Shown here piece by piece: positions 12,518 to 51,764 of a stretch of 64,000 bases of DNA. The notes beneath the pieces are model-generated. The model searched no databases, had not been told where the DNA came from, and saw only the letters and a list, made by a program, of their open reading frames with translations. The stretch comes from Verrucomicrobiota bacterium. Its GTDB lineage: Bacteria > Verrucomicrobiota > Verrucomicrobiia > Limisphaerales > UBA9464. The stretch is from contig JAFLEF010000028.1 of the NCBI GenBank assembly GCA_017309115.1, forward strand, positions 1-64,000, written 5' to 3'. Both the position numbers and the translations under genes were made by a program. Every line of letters begins with the position of its first letter. The stretch's first letter is position 1.

Positions 12518-13555
12518 ATGCGGCAACCACGTTTTGATAAAGTTCCCGGACTGGGGACCCACCACTTCCACTGCACTTCCCGAGTAGTCAATCGAGAGGA
12601 AATCTTCGGCCCGGAAGAGCGGGAGTACTTTGTGATGCTGATGCGGGAGTACGAAACCTTTTGCGGAGTGCGCGTGCTGAACTACACCGTCCTCTCCAAC
12701 CATTTCCACCTGCTCTTGGAAGTGCCGCCCAAGCCGGAGAAACTACCGTCGGCCGATGAGCTCATTGAACGGCTTAAGGGCCTAACGTCGACGACCCTGA
12801 CCCCGAAGAAGGCCCGCCAACTGGTGGACGCATTCCGCCAAGCCAAAGATGAGGCCGGAGAACGGTCCTGGGTGGAACAGCAATGTCAGGGGTTGTGGAA
12901 CTTGAGCGAATACATGAAGCGGCTCAAACAGCGGCTGAGCCGGTGGTACAATCGAAGGAACCGGCGCAAGGGCACGTTATGGGAGGAGCGTTTTGACAGT
13001 GTTTTGACCCAGGGATGCCCGGAAGTGCTGCTGACCGTGTCCTTGTACATTGACCTGAATTCCTTTCGAGCCGGACTGGTGAAGGAACCGGAGAACTACC
13101 GCTGGAGTGGCTTAGGCGAAGCGATGGCGGGACAGCCGCTGGCACAGCAGGGGTTACGGAAAGTGATCACTGGCGCGGAGCGTTTGGGCGAGACCAGCGC
13201 CGAACTAACCGAGGCGTTGGAAGCGTACCGGTTGCAGTTGTACGTCCGGAACGAAGAAGGGCGGGAAGGAACTGATGCGGAGGGACGCCCCTTGCGTCGG
13301 GGTTTGCCCCAAGCGCAAGTGCTTGAAGTGTTGAAGAACAAAGGACGGGTGAACCTGGTGGACTACGTCCAGTTGAACATTCGATATTTCGTTGATGGAG
13401 GGGTATTGGGAACCCAGGTATTTGTGGAACAAGTGTTCCAAGCATTCCCTGACTGTTTTGGCCCCAAACGTCGCACGGGCGCCCGCCGGATGCGCGGACT
13501 CGCTCCCAAACTCTACACGTTGCGCGACCTTCAGATCGACCTGTTCAAGCCCTAG
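12518..13555 (+). CDS. REP-associated tyrosine transposase 1 (Y1/HUH, IS200-like)
   Basis: A 345-residue Y1_Tnp-family protein starting MRQPRFDKVPG; two in-frame ATGs upstream at 12428 and 12509 are less typical starts. The HUH metal site is NHFHLLLEVP (His62, His64). A helix with candidate catalytic tyrosines follows (SEYMKRLKQRLSRWYNRRNRRKGTLWEERF, Tyr132/Tyr144), then YIDLNSFRAGLV, the family's conserved end of the nuclease domain, then a 150-residue C-terminal extension. RAYTs are single-copy domesticated relatives of IS200/IS605 TnpA that act on palindromic REP sequences. This one is bracketed by copies of a short repeat, which supports the assignment. Its TAG stop lies inside the left terminal inverted repeat of an adjacent 186-bp element. 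Confidence 0.85.
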   Translation: MRQPRFDKVPGLGTHHFHCTSRVVNREEIFGPEEREYFVMLMREYETFCGVRVLNYTVLSNHFHLLLEVPPKPEKLPSADELIERLKGLTSTTLTPKKARQLVDAFRQAKDEAGERSWVEQQCQGLWNLSEYMKRLKQRLSRWYNRRNRRKGTLWEERFDSVLTQGCPEVLLTVSLYIDLNSFRAGLVKEPENYRWSGLGEAMAGQPLAQQGLRKVITGAERLGETSAELTEALEAYRLQLYVRNEEGREGTDAEGRPLRRGLPQAQVLEVLKNKGRVNLVDYVQLNIRYFVDGGVLGTQVFVEQVFQAFPDCFGPKRRTGARRMRGLAPKLYTLRDLQIDLFKP

Positions 13556-33379: not shown

Positions 33380-34048
33380 CTGAGAGCTGAGTGCTGAGAG
33401 CTGAGAGGTCGGAAAGGAAAAGATGGTAGGGCGACGCTCTGCGGAGCCGTCCGTGTGTGGACTGGTGACGCGTGAATTCGCTGCGGCGCTTAGGAAGGCG
33501 CGAAGCGTTTGGACTGCGCCAACCCTCTGGCGCTTTGGGCGCGTAACTGGCGGGTGAGGTTGTCGATGCACTGACGCGTCAGCAGCCGTGGCGAAAAGCG
33601 GTAGCTCGCTGCGCTCCGCGACCGCAGTCCAAGACGCTTCGCGAGGGCGACGCGGGTGGGGAAACAGGACCGACAGGGTGTATGGCGCGAACGGCTCGGC
33701 GGAGCCTCGCCCCACCGGGGGAAAGCTGAGAGCTGAGAGCTGAGAGGTCGGAAGGTAGGGCGACGCTCTGCGGAGCCGTCCGTGTGTGGACTGGTGACGC
33801 GTGAATTCGCTGCGGCGCTTAGGAAGGCGCGAAGCGTTTGGACTGCGCCAACCCTCTGGCGCTTTGGGCGCGTAACTGGCGGGTGAGGTTGTCGATGCAC
33901 TGACGCGTCAGCAGCCGTGGCGAAAAGCGGTAGCTCGCTGCGCTCCGCGACCGCAGTCCAAGACGCTTCGCGAGGGCGACGCGGGTGGGGAAACAGGACC
34001 GACAGGGTGTATGGCGCGAACGGCTCGGTGGAACCTCGCCCTACCGGC
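33380..34048. repeat. Duplicated composite: family B nested inside family A, two copies 329 bp apart
   Basis: Copy 1 spans 33425-33716 and copy 2 33754-34046, nearly identical. Each has a family A left half, a complete family B element (33500-33642 and 33829-33971; ends gcgaagcgtttggactgcg and cgcagtccaagacgcttcgc), then a family A right half (gaacggctcgg..gagcctcgccc). GCTGAGA tracts precede both copies (33379-33412 and about 33724-33748). This is evidence that B inserted into A, followed by a recent segmental duplication. Confidence 0.88.
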
Positions 34049-43872: not shown

Positions 43873-44395
43873 GAGTTGAGAGTTGAAAGTTGAGAGACCG
43901 GAATGGGAAGCATGGTGGGGCGACGCTCTGCGGAGCCGTGCGTGTGTGGAGTAGTGACGCGGTGATTCGCGGGGACGCGCACGGCTCCGCGGAGCATCGC
44001 CCCACCGGGGGAAGGAGCTGAGAGGCGGAGGGGCAGAGGGGGAGAAAGTGGGAGGGGGAGACTTGGGTGACCGGGCCGGAGAGTTCGCGAAGCGTTTGGA
44101 CTGCGCCAGCCCTCTGGGGGTAGTAGGTCGAATGGTCGGCGCGGGAACGGTCCGTTGGAAACCTGGCCCTACCGCGCTTCGCTTCCTTACCGCTTGCCGC
44201 CTGGCGTTCCCGGTGAAGTGACACGTAGGGAGTCCAGACGCGCACGGCTCGGGCGGAGCCTCGCCCCACCGGGGGGCGGTTTGGTCTCTCAACTCTCAAC
44301 GTTCAACTCTCAACTGCCCCGCAATCCGCAAGGAGATTCAGCCCTGCATTGACGGGGCAGGGCTGGCTTTCCCACACTCCCCGTCTATTTCCGTC
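43873..44395. repeat. Heptamer variant tract and family A/B elements
   Basis: GTTGAGA-type units run to about 43897. A complete family A element lies at 43914-44010, a family B left fragment at about 44090-44116, a family A right half at about 44240-44275 and complementary heptamer units at 44287-44315. A 9-bp stem (44339-44347 with 44357-44365) sits 30 bp before acs and could be a terminator or leader structure. Confidence 0.7.
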
Positions 44396-46405
<2,010 letters not shown>

Positions 46406-46956
46406 GGAAAAGCTGAGAGCTGAGAGCTGAGAGCTGAGAGGTCGGAAGGAAAAACCGGTAGGGCGACGCTTTGCGGAGCCGTGCGTGTGTGGACTGGTGA
46501 CGCGGGAATTTGCGGTGACGCGAACGGCTCGGGCGGAGCCTCGCCCCACCGGGGCGGAAGGCTGCGGTTGATAGGGCGACGCTCTGCGGAGCCGTGCGTG
46601 TGTGGACTGGTGACGCGGCAATTTGCTACGCTTTGCGGAGCCGTGCGTGGGTGGACTGGTGACGTGGGAATTCGCTGCGACGTGAACGGCTCGGACGGAG
46701 CCTCGCCCCACCGGGGCGGAGGGCTACGGTCGGTAGGGCGACGCTCTGCGGAGCCGTGCGTGGGTGGACTGGTGACGCGGTAATTCGCTGCGACGCGAAC
46801 GGCTCGGGCGGAGCCTCGCCCCACCGGGGCGGGAGGCTACGGTTGGTAGGGCGACGCTCTGCGGAGCCGTGCGTGTGTGGACTGGTGACGCGGCAATTCG
46901 CTGCGACGCGAACGGCTCGGGCGGAGCCTCGCCCCACCGGGGTGGGAGGGTGAGGC
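46406..46956. repeat. Family A repeat array, left part (5 units)
   Basis: After a GCTGAGA tract (46412-46440), family A units start at 46457, 46570, about 46628 (5'-truncated), 46732 and 46845. A full unit is about 100 bp: a left arm ggtagggcgacgctctgcgg..agccgtgcg and a right arm cgaacggctcgg..gagcctcgccccacc that are imperfect inverted repeats, separated by a 35-base centre. The last unit ends 14 bases before the transposase stop. Confidence 0.9.
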
Positions 46957-47424
46957 TCACCACCCTACTTCCGGGAATACATCTCCTTGATAGGGCCAGG
47001 CTGAACGCTCTGTGACCAGTCCGGCTCGGACCGGGTTCTCCAGTACGTAACGCCATTTCTGACCGTGTTGTTCGTGATTGCGCAGTCGGTGGTGAAAGAC
47101 GCCTGACTGCCACTGCCAATCGGCATGTCCATGTCTCTTGCGGAAATCACTCTTCCAGTACCGGACCCAGCTTTCCACGGAACGGTTTGGATGATGTGCA
47201 GCCGCGAGGCAATGGAGGTGGTCGGGCATCAGAACATATCGTCCCACCAGCCAGTCGGTCGCCTGCGCCCAGGTGGATCGGAGGAGCTCATGAGCTTCTT
47301 CACAGGCAAGCCATTGGCGACGGGCCCGAGTGCAGATGGTCAACAGAAGTAGCGTGGGTTCACCCGTTCTCGTTAGTACGACTGGGTTCGGCCGCTCTCG
47401 CGAAGGGAAGAATGGATCAGCCAT
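46957..47424 (-). CDS. REP-associated tyrosine transposase 2 (Y1/HUH)
   Basis: A 155-residue protein from ATG 47424 (MADPFFPSRERPNP). It has the RAYT architecture: LLLLTICTRARRQWLA, the HUH site YVLMPDHLHCLAA (His69, His71), a helix with a candidate catalytic tyrosine (SWVRYWKSDFRKR, Tyr89), WQWQSGVFHHRLRNHEQHGQKWRYVLENPVRAGLV, the family's C-terminal signature. It is unrelated in detail to RAYT 1. Longer frames on this strand are extended through repeats. It sits in the middle of a 12-unit family A array, so it is the natural candidate for the enzyme that acts on these palindromes. Confidence 0.88.
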   Translation of the reverse strand: MADPFFPSRERPNPVVLTRTGEPTLLLLTICTRARRQWLACEEAHELLRSTWAQATDWLVGRYVLMPDHLHCLAAAHHPNRSVESWVRYWKSDFRKRHGHADWQWQSGVFHHRLRNHEQHGQKWRYVLENPVRAGLVTERSAWPYQGDVFPEVGW

Positions 47425-48308
47425 CGGCTCATTATGGCGCAACGGATCTGCACCGTTATCCCTAAATGTATGGAGCAGGCACTCAGGCTTCGCAGACCTC
47501 TCTTGGGTAGGGCGACGCTCTGCGGGGTCGTACGTGGGTGGACGGATGACGCAGGAATTCGCCGGGGCGCGAACGGCTCGGGCGGAGCCTCGCCCCACCG
47601 GGGCGGAAGGCTGCGGTTGGTAGGGCGACGCTCCGCGGAGCCGTGCGTGTGTGGACTGGTGACGCGGGAATTCGCTGCGACGCGAACGGCTCGGTGGAAC
47701 CTCGCCCCACCGGGGTGGGAGAGGCTACGGTTGGTAGGGCGACGCTCCGCGGAGCCGTGCGTGTGTGGACTGGTGACGCGGGAATTCGCTGCGACGCGAA
47801 CGGCTCGGGCGAAGCCTCGCCCCACCGGGGTGGGAAAGGCTACGGTTGGAAGGGCGACGCTCCGCGGAGCCGTGCGTGGGTGGACTGGTGACGCGGGAAT
47901 TTGCTGCGACGCGAACGGCTCGGGTGGAACCTCGCCCCACCGGGGTGGGAGAGGATGCGGTTGGTAGGGCGACGCTCTGCGGAGCCGTGCGTGTGTGGAC
48001 TGGTGACGCGGGAATTTGCTGCGACGCGAACGGCTCGGGCGGAGCCTCGCCCCACCGGGGTGGGAGAGGCTGCGGTTGGTAGGGCGACGCTCTGCGGAGC
48101 CGTACGTGGGTGGACGGGTGACGTGGGAATTTGCTGCGACGCGAACGGCTCGGGCGGAGCCTCGCCCCACCGGGGTGGGAGAGGCTGCGGTTGGTAGGGC
48201 GACGCTCTGCGGAGCCGTACGTGGGTGGACGGGTGACGTGGGAATTTGCTGCGACGCGAACGGCTCGGGTGGAACCTCGCCCCACCGGAGACTGTCACGC
48301 CGCCGAAC
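47425..48308. repeat. Family A repeat array, right part (7 units)
   Basis: Units start at 47506, 47619, 47733, 47848, 47963, 48078 and 48193, a regular period of 113-115 bp, all in one orientation. The last ends near 48288, 20 bases from the stop of the next gene. Copies differ at scattered positions (aattcgctgcg or aatttgctgcg centres; ggcggagcc, ggtggaacc or gcgaagcc in the right arm). Every small frame read here on either strand is repeat sequence. Confidence 0.92.
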
Positions 48309-49400
48309 TCAGGGATTGAGCGACTTGATGACCTCGTTCCCTTTCATCGAGATCTTCGTGATCGCGGTCGCATCGAGGGGCATTTTCATGAGGTCCACGG
48401 AACGGATCTGACTGTTCTCGTAAGTCCGGAAATAGAACCGCCGGGCCTGGGAGTTAATGGCGCTGGTCCAGAGCGTGTAGTCGGCTGTGACATTGCCCTT
48501 CGCGTCCTTCTCGGCATCCCGGGCGGCGCCCTTCGGAATGTCGAAGTTGTTCAGAATGTGAAACGCTTGGAGGATGGCCTCCTCGCCAGTGGCGGAAGGA
48601 AACACCGAGGTGCTGTAAGCGACAGCGCGGACAAAGCGGGACGGCGGCGTGAAGTCGCCGGGCAATCCCAACATACCGGTGCCCTGACCAAACCCGACCA
48701 GCGTCACGCTGCCCACCTTGACCGGCGGACGGTTCACCATCGAAAAGTTCACATAGTTGCGCAGATTGGTCATGTGCCAGTCGTAGGTCGGGGAATTGGT
48801 CATCACCCCCAGCGGGTTGTCATGCACGTGGAGTTTTCCATCGACGTACTCGATGACGATGCTGGTGCCGGTCTCGTCCTGGACGACGTAGTGGGCCGGG
48901 GGGGTGAATCCCCAGGCCGGAAAGACCACGTCGGCCACGACCACATCGGCGATGTTCTGCCGCACTTCCTGAACCGTGGCGAAGTTCTCCAAGATCCAAG
49001 AGCCAAGTTCCCATGGCGCCAAGGTGCGGTCGGCCTTGGCTGGATCGAATTTCTCGTAGCCGGCAGACGTGGGGAAGTAGAACAGCCCGACGGTCATGCC
49101 CTTTTCGTTCACCCCGTCAAAAATGAAGGGCAGGCCTACTCCATTGGCTCCCAGCGAGGCATACTTGGACTTCCATTTCAGGCCAGTGGCGCCCTGCGGG
49201 GTGGTGCCAGTCCGGGAGAAGTTACGGGGAATCATCAGAACCTCAGACTCCAGATCGAGACCGAACTCCAGGGTGCGCGCGCGGATGACCGTGCCGTCTT
49301 GGGCGATCAGGCGGATTCCCGTGCAGGCTTCGGAGTCCGGAGCGAGCGGAAGGGACGTGGCGAGGGCAAGTGCAAGCAGCAGGCGGGACAGCGGTTTCAT
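48309..49400 (-). CDS. Linear amide C-N hydrolase (choloylglycine hydrolase/penicillin V acylase family)
   Basis: A 363-residue Ntn hydrolase. The signal peptide MKPLSRLLLALALATSLPLAPDSEA ends directly before Cys26 (CTGIRL), which becomes the N-terminal nucleophile after cleavage. Other family marks are RARTLEFGLDLESE (Arg), PFIFDGVNEKGMTVGLFYFP, NSPTYDWHMTNLRNY and the DYTLWTSAINSQARRFYFRTYEN segment. Exported family members cleave bile-salt-like, penicillin V-like or N-acyl homoserine lactone amides; the last is plausible for an environmental species but unproven. The stop lies 20 bases from the end of the repeat array. Confidence 0.9.
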   Translation of the reverse strand: MKPLSRLLLALALATSLPLAPDSEACTGIRLIAQDGTVIRARTLEFGLDLESEVLMIPRNFSRTGTTPQGATGLKWKSKYASLGANGVGLPFIFDGVNEKGMTVGLFYFPTSAGYEKFDPAKADRTLAPWELGSWILENFATVQEVRQNIADVVVADVVFPAWGFTPPAHYVVQDETGTSIVIEYVDGKLHVHDNPLGVMTNSPTYDWHMTNLRNYVNFSMVNRPPVKVGSVTLVGFGQGTGMLGLPGDFTPPSRFVRAVAYSTSVFPSATGEEAILQAFHILNNFDIPKGAARDAEKDAKGNVTADYTLWTSAINSQARRFYFRTYENSQIRSVDLMKMPLDATAITKISMKGNEVIKSLNP

Positions 49401-49586
49401 AACGGTAAGGAGGATGTGGACCGGGGAAGTGATCGAACCGAGATTCGTCCAGGCCGGGCCGGTTGAGGTCGTTTGGTTCGGATCGAATGATTCCAGAGAG
49501 AGGTCTGGTTTGTCGAGCCTGCGGCGGCCGGGCGGGTTCCCTCGGTTCGAGGTTTCGAATCGGCGTTAATGTGATTAGAGTTCGCC

Positions 49587-51764
49587 ATGCGGAGTTGCAC
49601 TCGTCTTGGCCAACTGGTTCTCGGGATCTTCTGGATCACTTGGATTGGGTTGGGGGCAGAGTCTCCGCCCACTGCTTTGAATTCTTCGCCTGCCGCTGTT
49701 GCCGCCTCAATTCCCACGCCTCCCCGTGCCGCCACCCGGGACCACTGGTCCACCTGGCACGGAGAACGGGTGAACGATCCCTGGTTTTGGCTGCGGGAGA
49801 AGACCAACCCCGAAGTGATCCGGTATTTGGAGGCCGAGAATGCCTACACCGAGGCCTCCACGGCAGACGTTAAAGCCTTTGGGGAACAGTTGTATCGGGA
49901 GGCTCTGGGCCGGATCCAGCAGACCGACCTGAGCGTTCCCTTGCGGCGGGGCCAGTTCTATTACTACTCCCGCACTCAGGAAGGTCGGCAGTATTCCGTC
50001 CTTTGTCGGAAACCCGCTGACGCCTCGGGAAACCTGGATTCCCAGGCGCCGGAACAGGTCCTGCTGGACCTCAATCAACTGGCGGAGGGAAAGACCTTTC
50101 TGTCGTTGGGCAGCTTCGAAATCAGCGATGACGCGACGCAGTTGCTCTACAGCACCGACGTCACCGGGTTTCGGCAGTACAGCTTGTTTCACAAGAATCT
50201 CGCCTCAGGGAAGACAAGCGGCCCGTGGGCGGAGCGGGTGGATGGCGTGCAGTGGGCGGCTGACGGCCAGACGGTGTTTTATGTCATCGAGGAGCCCGTG
50301 ACCAAGCGTAGCCACCAATTGTGGCGCCGGCGCAGTCTGGAGGCTCAGCCGGAGTTGGTCTGGGAGGAGAAGGATGAGTTGTACGGCTTGAGTCTGAGCC
50401 GGACCAAGGATCGCCAGTTCCTCATTTGCTCCAGCACAAGCACGGACACGTGGGAGCAACGGATTCTGCCAGCCCACACGCCGCAGGCGGAATTCCAAGT
50501 CGTTCTGCCCCGGGAGAAAGGTCACAAGTACGATCTCGAGCACCGCGCGGGACTGTTTTATATCCGCTCCAATCAGAACGCGAAAAACTTCCGAGTGGTC
50601 ACCGCTCCCGTCGCTACGCCCAACCGTTGGACCGAGTTGGTTCCGCACCGTCCAGACGTGCTTCTGGAAGGGTTGGAGTTGTTCGCCAACCATCTGGTCA
50701 TTCAGGAACAGCGCGAAGCCCTGACCGTACTGCGGATTCAGGATTCCCGGACCGGCGCCTGGCGCGAAGTCACTTTTCCCGAAACCGTTTATGCGGCCGG
50801 CGCGACGGGCACTCCGGAGTTTGGTGCCGCCGCGTTTCGGCTCTCGTACCAGTCGATGATCACCCCCGCGAGTGTCTATGACTGCGATCTGACCACCGGC
50901 AAGTTGACCCTGCTGAAACGGACCGAAGTTCTGGGAGGCTACGATCCCAGCGCCTACGTCACCGAACGTCGGTGGGTAACGGCCCGGGATGGCGTTAAGG
51001 TACCGCTGTCCCTGATGTATCGTCGGGGCACGGAGCTAGATGGAACCGCTCCCTGTTTTCTCTACGGGTACGGCTCCTATGGGATCGGCATGGACGCGAG
51101 CTTCTCGGTCGAACGTCTATCGCTCGTCGATCGCGGCTTGGTGTATGTCATTGCCCACATTCGCGGTGGCAACGAACTGGGCGAGTCCTGGCACGACGAG
51201 GGCATGCTCCTGAAAAAGAAGAACACCTTCCACGACTTCATCGATTGCGCCGAAGCACTGGGATCCAAGCGTTGGGTGGACCCCAAGCGGATCGTCATTG
51301 AGGGCGGGAGCGCCGGGGGCCTGCTGGTCGGCGCCGTGGTCAATCTTCGTCCGGACCTTTTTCGAGCGGCGCACGCGGCCGTGCCCTTCATGGACGTGAT
51401 GAATACGATGATGGACGCCAGTCTGCCACTGACCGTGGGCGAGTATCTCGAGTGGGGCGATCCTAACAACAAGACCTACTTTGACTACATGCGGTCCTAC
51501 AGTCCGTACGACAACCTGCGCGCGACGAACTATCCGGCGATGCTAGTCACCACCAGTCTCAACGACAGTCAGGTGATGTATTGGGAACCGGCCAAGTATG
51601 TGGCCAAGTTGCGGACCCTGAAGACGGATCAGAATCCGTTGCATCTGAAATGCAACATGGGCGCCGGACATGGCGGGGCGAGTGGCCGTTACGACCGGCT
51701 TAAGGAGCACGCTTTCGAGCACGCGTGGTTGCTGACCCAGTTGGGAATCCGTCAACTGCAGTGA
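49587..51764 (+). CDS. ptrB: Oligopeptidase B-like prolyl oligopeptidase family peptidase (S9A)
   Basis: A 725-residue serine peptidase with an N-terminal signal peptide (LGQLVLGIFWITWIGLGAES), so probably periplasmic, unlike classic cytosolic PtrB. A beta-propeller of about 400 residues (DHWSTWHGERVNDPWFWLREKTNP; FYYYSRTQEGRQY) precedes the hydrolase domain. That domain has YGYGSYG, HIRGGNELGESWHDEG and the nucleophile EGGSAGG with Ser575, with Asp in SLNDSQVMYWEPAKY and His in MGAGHGGASGR. Oligopeptidase B cleaves small peptides after basic residues. It is divergent from the Ntn hydrolase gene. Confidence 0.93.
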   Translation: MRSCTRLGQLVLGIFWITWIGLGAESPPTALNSSPAAVAASIPTPPRAATRDHWSTWHGERVNDPWFWLREKTNPEVIRYLEAENAYTEASTADVKAFGEQLYREALGRIQQTDLSVPLRRGQFYYYSRTQEGRQYSVLCRKPADASGNLDSQAPEQVLLDLNQLAEGKTFLSLGSFEISDDATQLLYSTDVTGFRQYSLFHKNLASGKTSGPWAERVDGVQWAADGQTVFYVIEEPVTKRSHQLWRRRSLEAQPELVWEEKDELYGLSLSRTKDRQFLICSSTSTDTWEQRILPAHTPQAEFQVVLPREKGHKYDLEHRAGLFYIRSNQNAKNFRVVTAPVATPNRWTELVPHRPDVLLEGLELFANHLVIQEQREALTVLRIQDSRTGAWREVTFPETVYAAGATGTPEFGAAAFRLSYQSMITPASVYDCDLTTGKLTLLKRTEVLGGYDPSAYVTERRWVTARDGVKVPLSLMYRRGTELDGTAPCFLYGYGSYGIGMDASFSVERLSLVDRGLVYVIAHIRGGNELGESWHDEGMLLKKKNTFHDFIDCAEALGSKRWVDPKRIVIEGGSAGGLLVGAVVNLRPDLFRAAHAAVPFMDVMNTMMDASLPLTVGEYLEWGDPNNKTYFDYMRSYSPYDNLRATNYPAMLVTTSLNDSQVMYWEPAKYVAKLRTLKTDQNPLHLKCNMGAGHGGASGRYDRLKEHAFEHAWLLTQLGIRQLQ

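Follow-up and report, generated by a model that had tools for sequence, protein, structure and literature searches.

What is a RAYT-type transposase gene doing in the middle of a long and regular array of repeats, and does the array belong to it? The question is raised by positions 46406-48308 of the window, the 64,000-nucleotide stretch of Verrucomicrobiota DNA analysed here, where the gap between two convergent genes contains 12 units of one repeat, family A, together with one RAYT gene. All 12 units lie on the + strand, 5 to the left of the gene and 7 to its right, at a spacing of 113-115 bp except for unit 2, which is cut to 54 nt. TRF reports a period of 113 at 46628-46950 and a period of 115, in 6.8 copies, at 47506-48288. 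The initial annotation had described just such a set of one-way units, mostly 113-115 bp apart and disposed 5/7 around a gene for 155 amino acids, and its counts and positions are right. The features are as follows.

44396..46405, + strand, acetate--CoA ligase gene, left neighbour, convergent
46411..46440, + strand, heptamer tract (AGCTGAG)4 found by TRF, adjoining unit 1
46458..46550, + strand, family A REPIN unit 1
46571..46625, + strand, unit 2, a stump with the left arm and part of the centre, lacking the right arm
46626..46712, + strand, unit 3, lacking the left tag
46733..46825, + strand, unit 4
46846..46938, + strand, unit 5, the last before the RAYT gene
46960..47424, - strand, RAYT gene, 155 aa, intact, with H69-L-H71 (HUH) and Y126; stop codon at 46957-46959
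47507..47599, + strand, unit 6, the first past the RAYT gene and the most divergent (0.84-0.90 to the others)
47620..47711, + strand, unit 7
47734..47826, + strand, unit 8
47849..47941, + strand, unit 9
47964..48056, + strand, unit 10, the query unit
48079..48171, + strand, unit 11
48194..48286, + strand, unit 12
48309..49400, - strand, choloylglycine hydrolase family (CBAH) gene, right neighbour, convergent

That the gene encodes a RAYT, as had been read from the letters alone, is supported by profile searches. The protein matches the NCBIfam model REP_Tyr_transpos (NF047646) with an E-value of 1.3e-20, at 73.8 bits against a curated cut-off of 80, and Pfam Y1_Tnp (PF01797) weakly, at 19.7 bits against a cut-off of 23. 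A profile built from its homologues finds the E. coli protein TnpA_REP (4er8) at 7.6e-21, and H69, H71 and Y126 are invariant in a 17-row alignment of these homologues.

Each family A unit consists of two palindromic REPs tagged with GTAG/GTGG and placed in inverted order, which makes it a REPIN. The left arm reads GTAGGGCGACGCTCTGCGGAGCCG, and the right arm, read on the other strand, GGTGGGGCGAGGCTCCGCCCGAGCCG. Inverted arms around a centre had been proposed from the start and this layout is retained, with a centre of 42 nt rather than 35 by the arm cuts used here, a length that depends on where the cut is placed. Since unit 2 is a stump and unit 3 has no left tag, 10 of the 12 units are complete; these share a mean identity of 0.925 (0.928 across the gene, 0.953 on the left side and 0.918 on the right). 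The REP doublets are tandemly repeated in the array, a BIME-2-like layout. The intact arms nearest to the gene, at 46914 (-) and 47508 (+), are mutually inverted with their tags facing it, whereas RAYTs usually carry an outward REP pair.

The folding of a single-stranded unit, which the initial annotation had put forward as a check, came out strongly: one unit forms a single long imperfect hairpin with a z-score of -3.24 under DNA parameters and -3.76 under RNA parameters, and none of 200 shuffles folded as well. Such folding, together with a site between convergent 3' ends, described as a common place for REPs (PMC3733652), would suit an array maintained for some service to the host where the two genes meet, such as ending transcription or binding gyrase, with the RAYT as a passenger. 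We nevertheless consider this quite improbable: no promoter or terminator-like site was found in a scan of 46300-48400, Rfam matched nothing in 44000-50000, and the excess of arrays at RAYTs reported below would be left unexplained. As for the neighbouring genes, the sole match to acs or choloylglycine hydrolase among 109 RAYT loci (L046-L074 and L095-L174), many of them with short flanks, was an AMP-binding protein of 24% identity at L158.

Family A extends far beyond the locus. The source genome (G000) is a draft of 7.53 Mb in 111 contigs and is 95.3% complete; the left-arm pattern, allowing at most 2 mismatches, occurs at 449 places in it and at none for a backwards-read control, and the right-arm pattern at 112 places as against 3 in the control. 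Together with the folding, these counts show that the units are no product of chance. The RAYT gene, with 5 + 7 units around it, therefore sits between copies of a genome-abundant REP. Among 58 relatives the left arm is found at most 19 times (G034), and the four relatives of the same genus have 0, 0, 3 and 0 copies. In 1,093,782 nt of the source genome, sampled without looking for matches and leaving out contigs previously picked for them, so that the numbers may run low, there were 99 half-sites against 5 in the reversed control. The same sample holds 24 complete units, which form 20 clusters (17 of these consisting of one unit), a dispersed REPIN population. Within the window, all ten places at which further copies had been listed were found, as was one more at 62.9 kb. 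In 384,817 nt chosen mostly for matches, the biggest clusters hold 7 units (the right side of the RAYT array) and 5 units (contig C108), which makes the RAYT array the largest in the 1.48 Mb examined.

Is the RAYT in the array the one that belongs to these repeats? A scan of genome contigs gave 328 candidates, of which 80 RAYT loci were kept, largely from Verrucomicrobiota and Planctomycetes with a few other phyla. Over 71 of these loci, genes whose proteins are closer in identity to the RAYT studied here have a higher best A-arm score within 300 nt (rho 0.55, p 5.5e-7, kinship ignored), in comparison with 0.02 for reversed arms and 0.005 for far flanks. A score of at least 16 was reached by 10 of the 15 homologues at 47% identity or more, by 3 of 19 at 43-46% and by 6 of 37 at 35-42%, and by no control. 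Homologues lying beside unrelated repeats had been named initially as the finding that would speak against the pairing, and what we see instead is A-like repeats that track identity. At the 54% identical homologue L097, the RAYT stands between two direct A-type REPINs, with one more REP past its stop codon.

Copy number follows the RAYT less closely. The proposal that the two go together is supported in that at least 15 A-type copies were present in 8 of the 15 relatives whose RAYT scores 80 bits or higher, as against 4 of the 43 others (Fisher p 0.001, with kinship ignored, a looser arm pattern for the relatives and an 80-bit cut set after the search scores were known). Against it stand the remaining 7 of the 15 carriers, which have fewer than 15 A-type arms, and four exceptions, G005, G016, G029 and G046, which hold 77-181 A-type arms with no close RAYT found; these four might be explained if their RAYT had been lost, if the draft is incomplete or if a different RAYT is involved. 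Across 49 other genomes (50 of the 80 loci), RAYT identity also correlates with A copies per Mb (rho 0.41, p 0.003, kinship ignored). The genome-wide copies and the A-like REPs that track protein identity indicate, in spite of the four exceptional relatives, that family A is very probably the cognate repeat of this RAYT, the two forming a REPtron.

The source genome offers other candidates for the role, as seven further Y1/RAYT-like loci were found in it, and two A half-sites in inverted order, 1391 nt apart, surround the RAYT-like gene on C38. Family A could accordingly belong to another RAYT, the gene at our locus merely having come to lie inside an A array. Against this, the loci on C37, C38, C97 and C23 are adjoined by other repeats, and A-like REPs are frequent neighbours of homologues that share at least 47% identity with the RAYT studied here (the 10 of 15 above). 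We regard such a mismatch as very improbable.

Several further observations concern the repeats of this genome. The RAYT-like genes on C37, C38, C97 and C23 (L039, L036, L038 and L031) stand beside different repeat families, and some of their repeats are tandem, with periods of 109, 141 and 353 bp. A further, longer Y1_Tnp protein (open frame of 377 aa) is encoded at 12560-13108 of the window, and similar ones occur on C50 and C22. On contig C108 (L093:57-1009), five tandem units of 216 bp each join an A REPIN to what seems to be the family found beside the C37 RAYT, forming a two-family composite; at 33427-34047 of the window, two direct copies about 329 nt apart have A-unit arms parted by an insert that resembles the repeats beside the C38 RAYT. 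Heptamer tracts, (AGCTGAG)n, adjoin many A sites, for example at L076, L077, L085 and L087, and in the 1.09 Mb sample 26 of 54 heptamer runs lay within 150 nt of an A half-site, against 2.67 expected.

How, then, did the array arise? We compared the linkers between units in 14 multi-unit clusters from 404,817 nt of the source genome, two of these clusters being the halves of the RAYT array. Within a cluster the linkers resemble one another (mean 0.87 and median 0.92 over 29 pairs, of which the right side of the RAYT array contributes 15), apart from two low pairs (0.12 and 0.18) in which the lengths differ much, whereas linkers from different clusters are unlike (mean 0.35, median 0.34, 377 pairs). 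Units share one orientation in all 14 clusters. Because linkers are alike within and unlike between clusters, and because each cluster keeps one orientation, local amplification of a unit together with its own flank fits better than repeated insertion. Units on opposite sides of the gene resemble each other as much as units on one side do, and one linker is common to both sides; the gene therefore splits a single array. The other arrays, whose linkers are specific to their loci, were not copied from the RAYT array as arrays. The suggestion that the RAYT array serves as a reservoir of the others accordingly found no support and was dropped.

Taken together, we consider it highly probable that the locus is a REPtron, comprising a RAYT gene and its cognate REPIN family, that this family has spread through the genome, and that tandem amplification was local, with the gene splitting one array. 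In such a scheme the RAYT, a single-strand endonuclease of the Y1 HUH type, would recognise REP hairpins that carry a GTRG tag, and it would have spread family A REPINs through the source genome. A REPIN with a short piece of its flank would then have been amplified locally, here and at other sites, to give a tandem array of one orientation, and the RAYT gene would split one such array. The parts of the locus, the genome-wide copies, the REP-RAYT similarity trend and the locus-specific linkers are legible in the DNA itself. For the recognition, cleavage and mobilisation of family A by this RAYT, we infer from the known family that they probably take place.

The agent of the amplification is less clear. 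Direct repeats could have given rise to the array by homologous recombination or by replication slippage, the RAYT having delivered the first REPIN only, and this would be compatible with the REPtron reading. The locus-specific linkers and the single orientation per cluster are in keeping with it, as are arrays without an adjoining RAYT, such as those on C66 and C108, and the loss of five units from a tandem REPIN cluster of E. coli during mutation accumulation (PMC8049555). The linker of the RAYT array, however, was not found in its outer flanks, where plain duplication of a unit with its flank would leave it. More generally, the match of the linker to the cluster's own flank ranked first of 27 in 4 of the 14 clusters, and the halves of the RAYT array ranked 2nd and 18th. 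A second point against general recombination is an excess of equal-period, two-sided arrays at RAYTs, and we judge the case for it to be about evenly balanced.

This excess emerged from a survey of flanks at the named RAYT loci, 10 of the 80 having been dropped for a short flank and control flanks being available for 42 of the other 70. One short repeat occurs on both sides within 1 kb at 60 of the 70 loci, a count made without a far-flank control. At least three copies were present at 53 of the 70 loci against 5 of 42 far-flank controls, and at least five copies at 22 of 70 against 1 of 42 (p 0.0002). At 11 of 76 loci, the RAYT array described here included, the gene is flanked left and right by direct arrays with the same period, as against none of 41 far flanks (p 0.008). 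The 76 are the 70 named loci plus six added with their repeats already known (five from the source genome, and G047); without the six the count is 8 of 70 against 0 of 41 (p 0.025), and leaving out the array described here it is 10 of 75 (p 0.014). Two of the 11, L106 and L148, are doubtful, as their repeats lie at a distance from the gene or in sequence that looks coding. Four examples are clear. In G047 (L058:744-2581), an independent RAYT lies mid-array between 7 and 5 units of 97 bp, and another (L172:2593-3830) between 3 and 4 units of 93 bp; the C37 RAYT of the source genome has 3 and 4 units of 108-109 bp, and the L133 RAYT 3 and 2 units of 87 bp. When single periods were compared among the 11 loci, 3 of 55 pairs beat all 100 shuffles and none of the three includes family A, so that the layout recurs with mostly unrelated repeats. 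We also considered direct REPs around RAYTs as a rule and rejected it, since of 49 loci 23 have their nearest copies in direct order and 26 in inverted order.

That equal-period arrays recur at RAYTs, with repeats that for the most part are unrelated, is what one might expect if the RAYT itself makes the array, cutting direct REP tags to release a one-period circle that is copied by rolling circle and rejoined, as Nunvar 2010 (PMC2817692) proposes. In that paper, rayt 3' ends are reported caught between REPs in four BIMEs, and in our array the linker is similar to the sequence immediately beyond the stop codon of the RAYT, with 17 identical positions around one 4-nt gap. The likeness is not unique, as the linker matches an unrelated flank (L078) equally well (28, against 27 for the RAYT 3' flank), and arrays without an adjoining RAYT also speak against an enzyme-made array; we find this origin rather unlikely. 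Rolling or strand-switch amplification, as suggested in the initial annotation, may have been at work. A broader and more speculative form is that the RAYTs of Verrucomicrobiota and related bacteria surround their own genes with REPIN arrays of one period, actively building and maintaining them by cutting direct REP tags and re-inserting one-period circles. The array would then be an enzyme product that recurs with mostly unrelated repeats; this seems unlikely. In the literature available to us, the movement of REPs and REPINs by RAYTs has been inferred more than watched. The source genome, in which several RAYT-like genes adjoin different repeat families, and the equal-period arrays flanking RAYTs elsewhere provide clean material for deciding between the enzyme and general recombination as maker of the arrays.

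The arrangement is real, and represents a large case of a layout known in other bacteria. The initial annotation had called a regular array around a RAYT unusual, a view that does not hold: such arrays have been published (PMC2817692, PMC3116915), and equal-period ones stand at the 11 of 76 loci, two of them doubtful, counted above. The locus is a genuine large REPtron of known type with an unusually long array, and it extends the known layout to such an array in a little-studied phylum. Our literature search, with most subscription papers beyond its reach, found no publication on this array.

The closest comparison is with the E. coli REPtron, yafM (TnpA_REP) and BIME-2, as treated in the accessible part of Nunvar 2010 (PMC2817692), where BIME-2 lies on both sides of rayt, one RAYT in three has a direct association with BIMEs, RAYTs and REPs coevolve, RAYT-driven rolling-circle growth is proposed, and the homologues fitting the authors' criteria come from gammaproteobacteria only. 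Both systems have REP doublets in tandem to either side of the gene, cognate REPs in high copy number and RAYT-REP coevolution. The REP and RAYT sequences differ, and here 12 units run in one orientation with the nearest tags facing the gene. By motifs, compared without a tree, the protein resembles TnpA_Y1 subclass 2.5 (RAYT group 3; PMC6006769) in DHLH, in WQ and in a length of about 151 aa, but it has YVLENP (YVxxNP) where YI[VI]ANP is given for the subclass, whose hosts, as listed in the sections available, are xanthomonads and pseudomonads. The GTAG repeats of Di Nocera 2013 (PMC3733652), which occur in the PVC superphylum, are likewise GTAG-tagged palindromes in tandem clusters with flanking DNA, although the accessible part of that article does not describe family A or its genome. 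In Pseudomonas fluorescens SBW25 (Bertels and Rainey 2011, PMC3116915, as far as that text is accessible), tandem clusters of REPINs with their flanks lie one beside each of three RAYTs, as the array lies beside the RAYT here; the largest of them holds four REPINs, in comparison with the 12 units around the gene at our locus.
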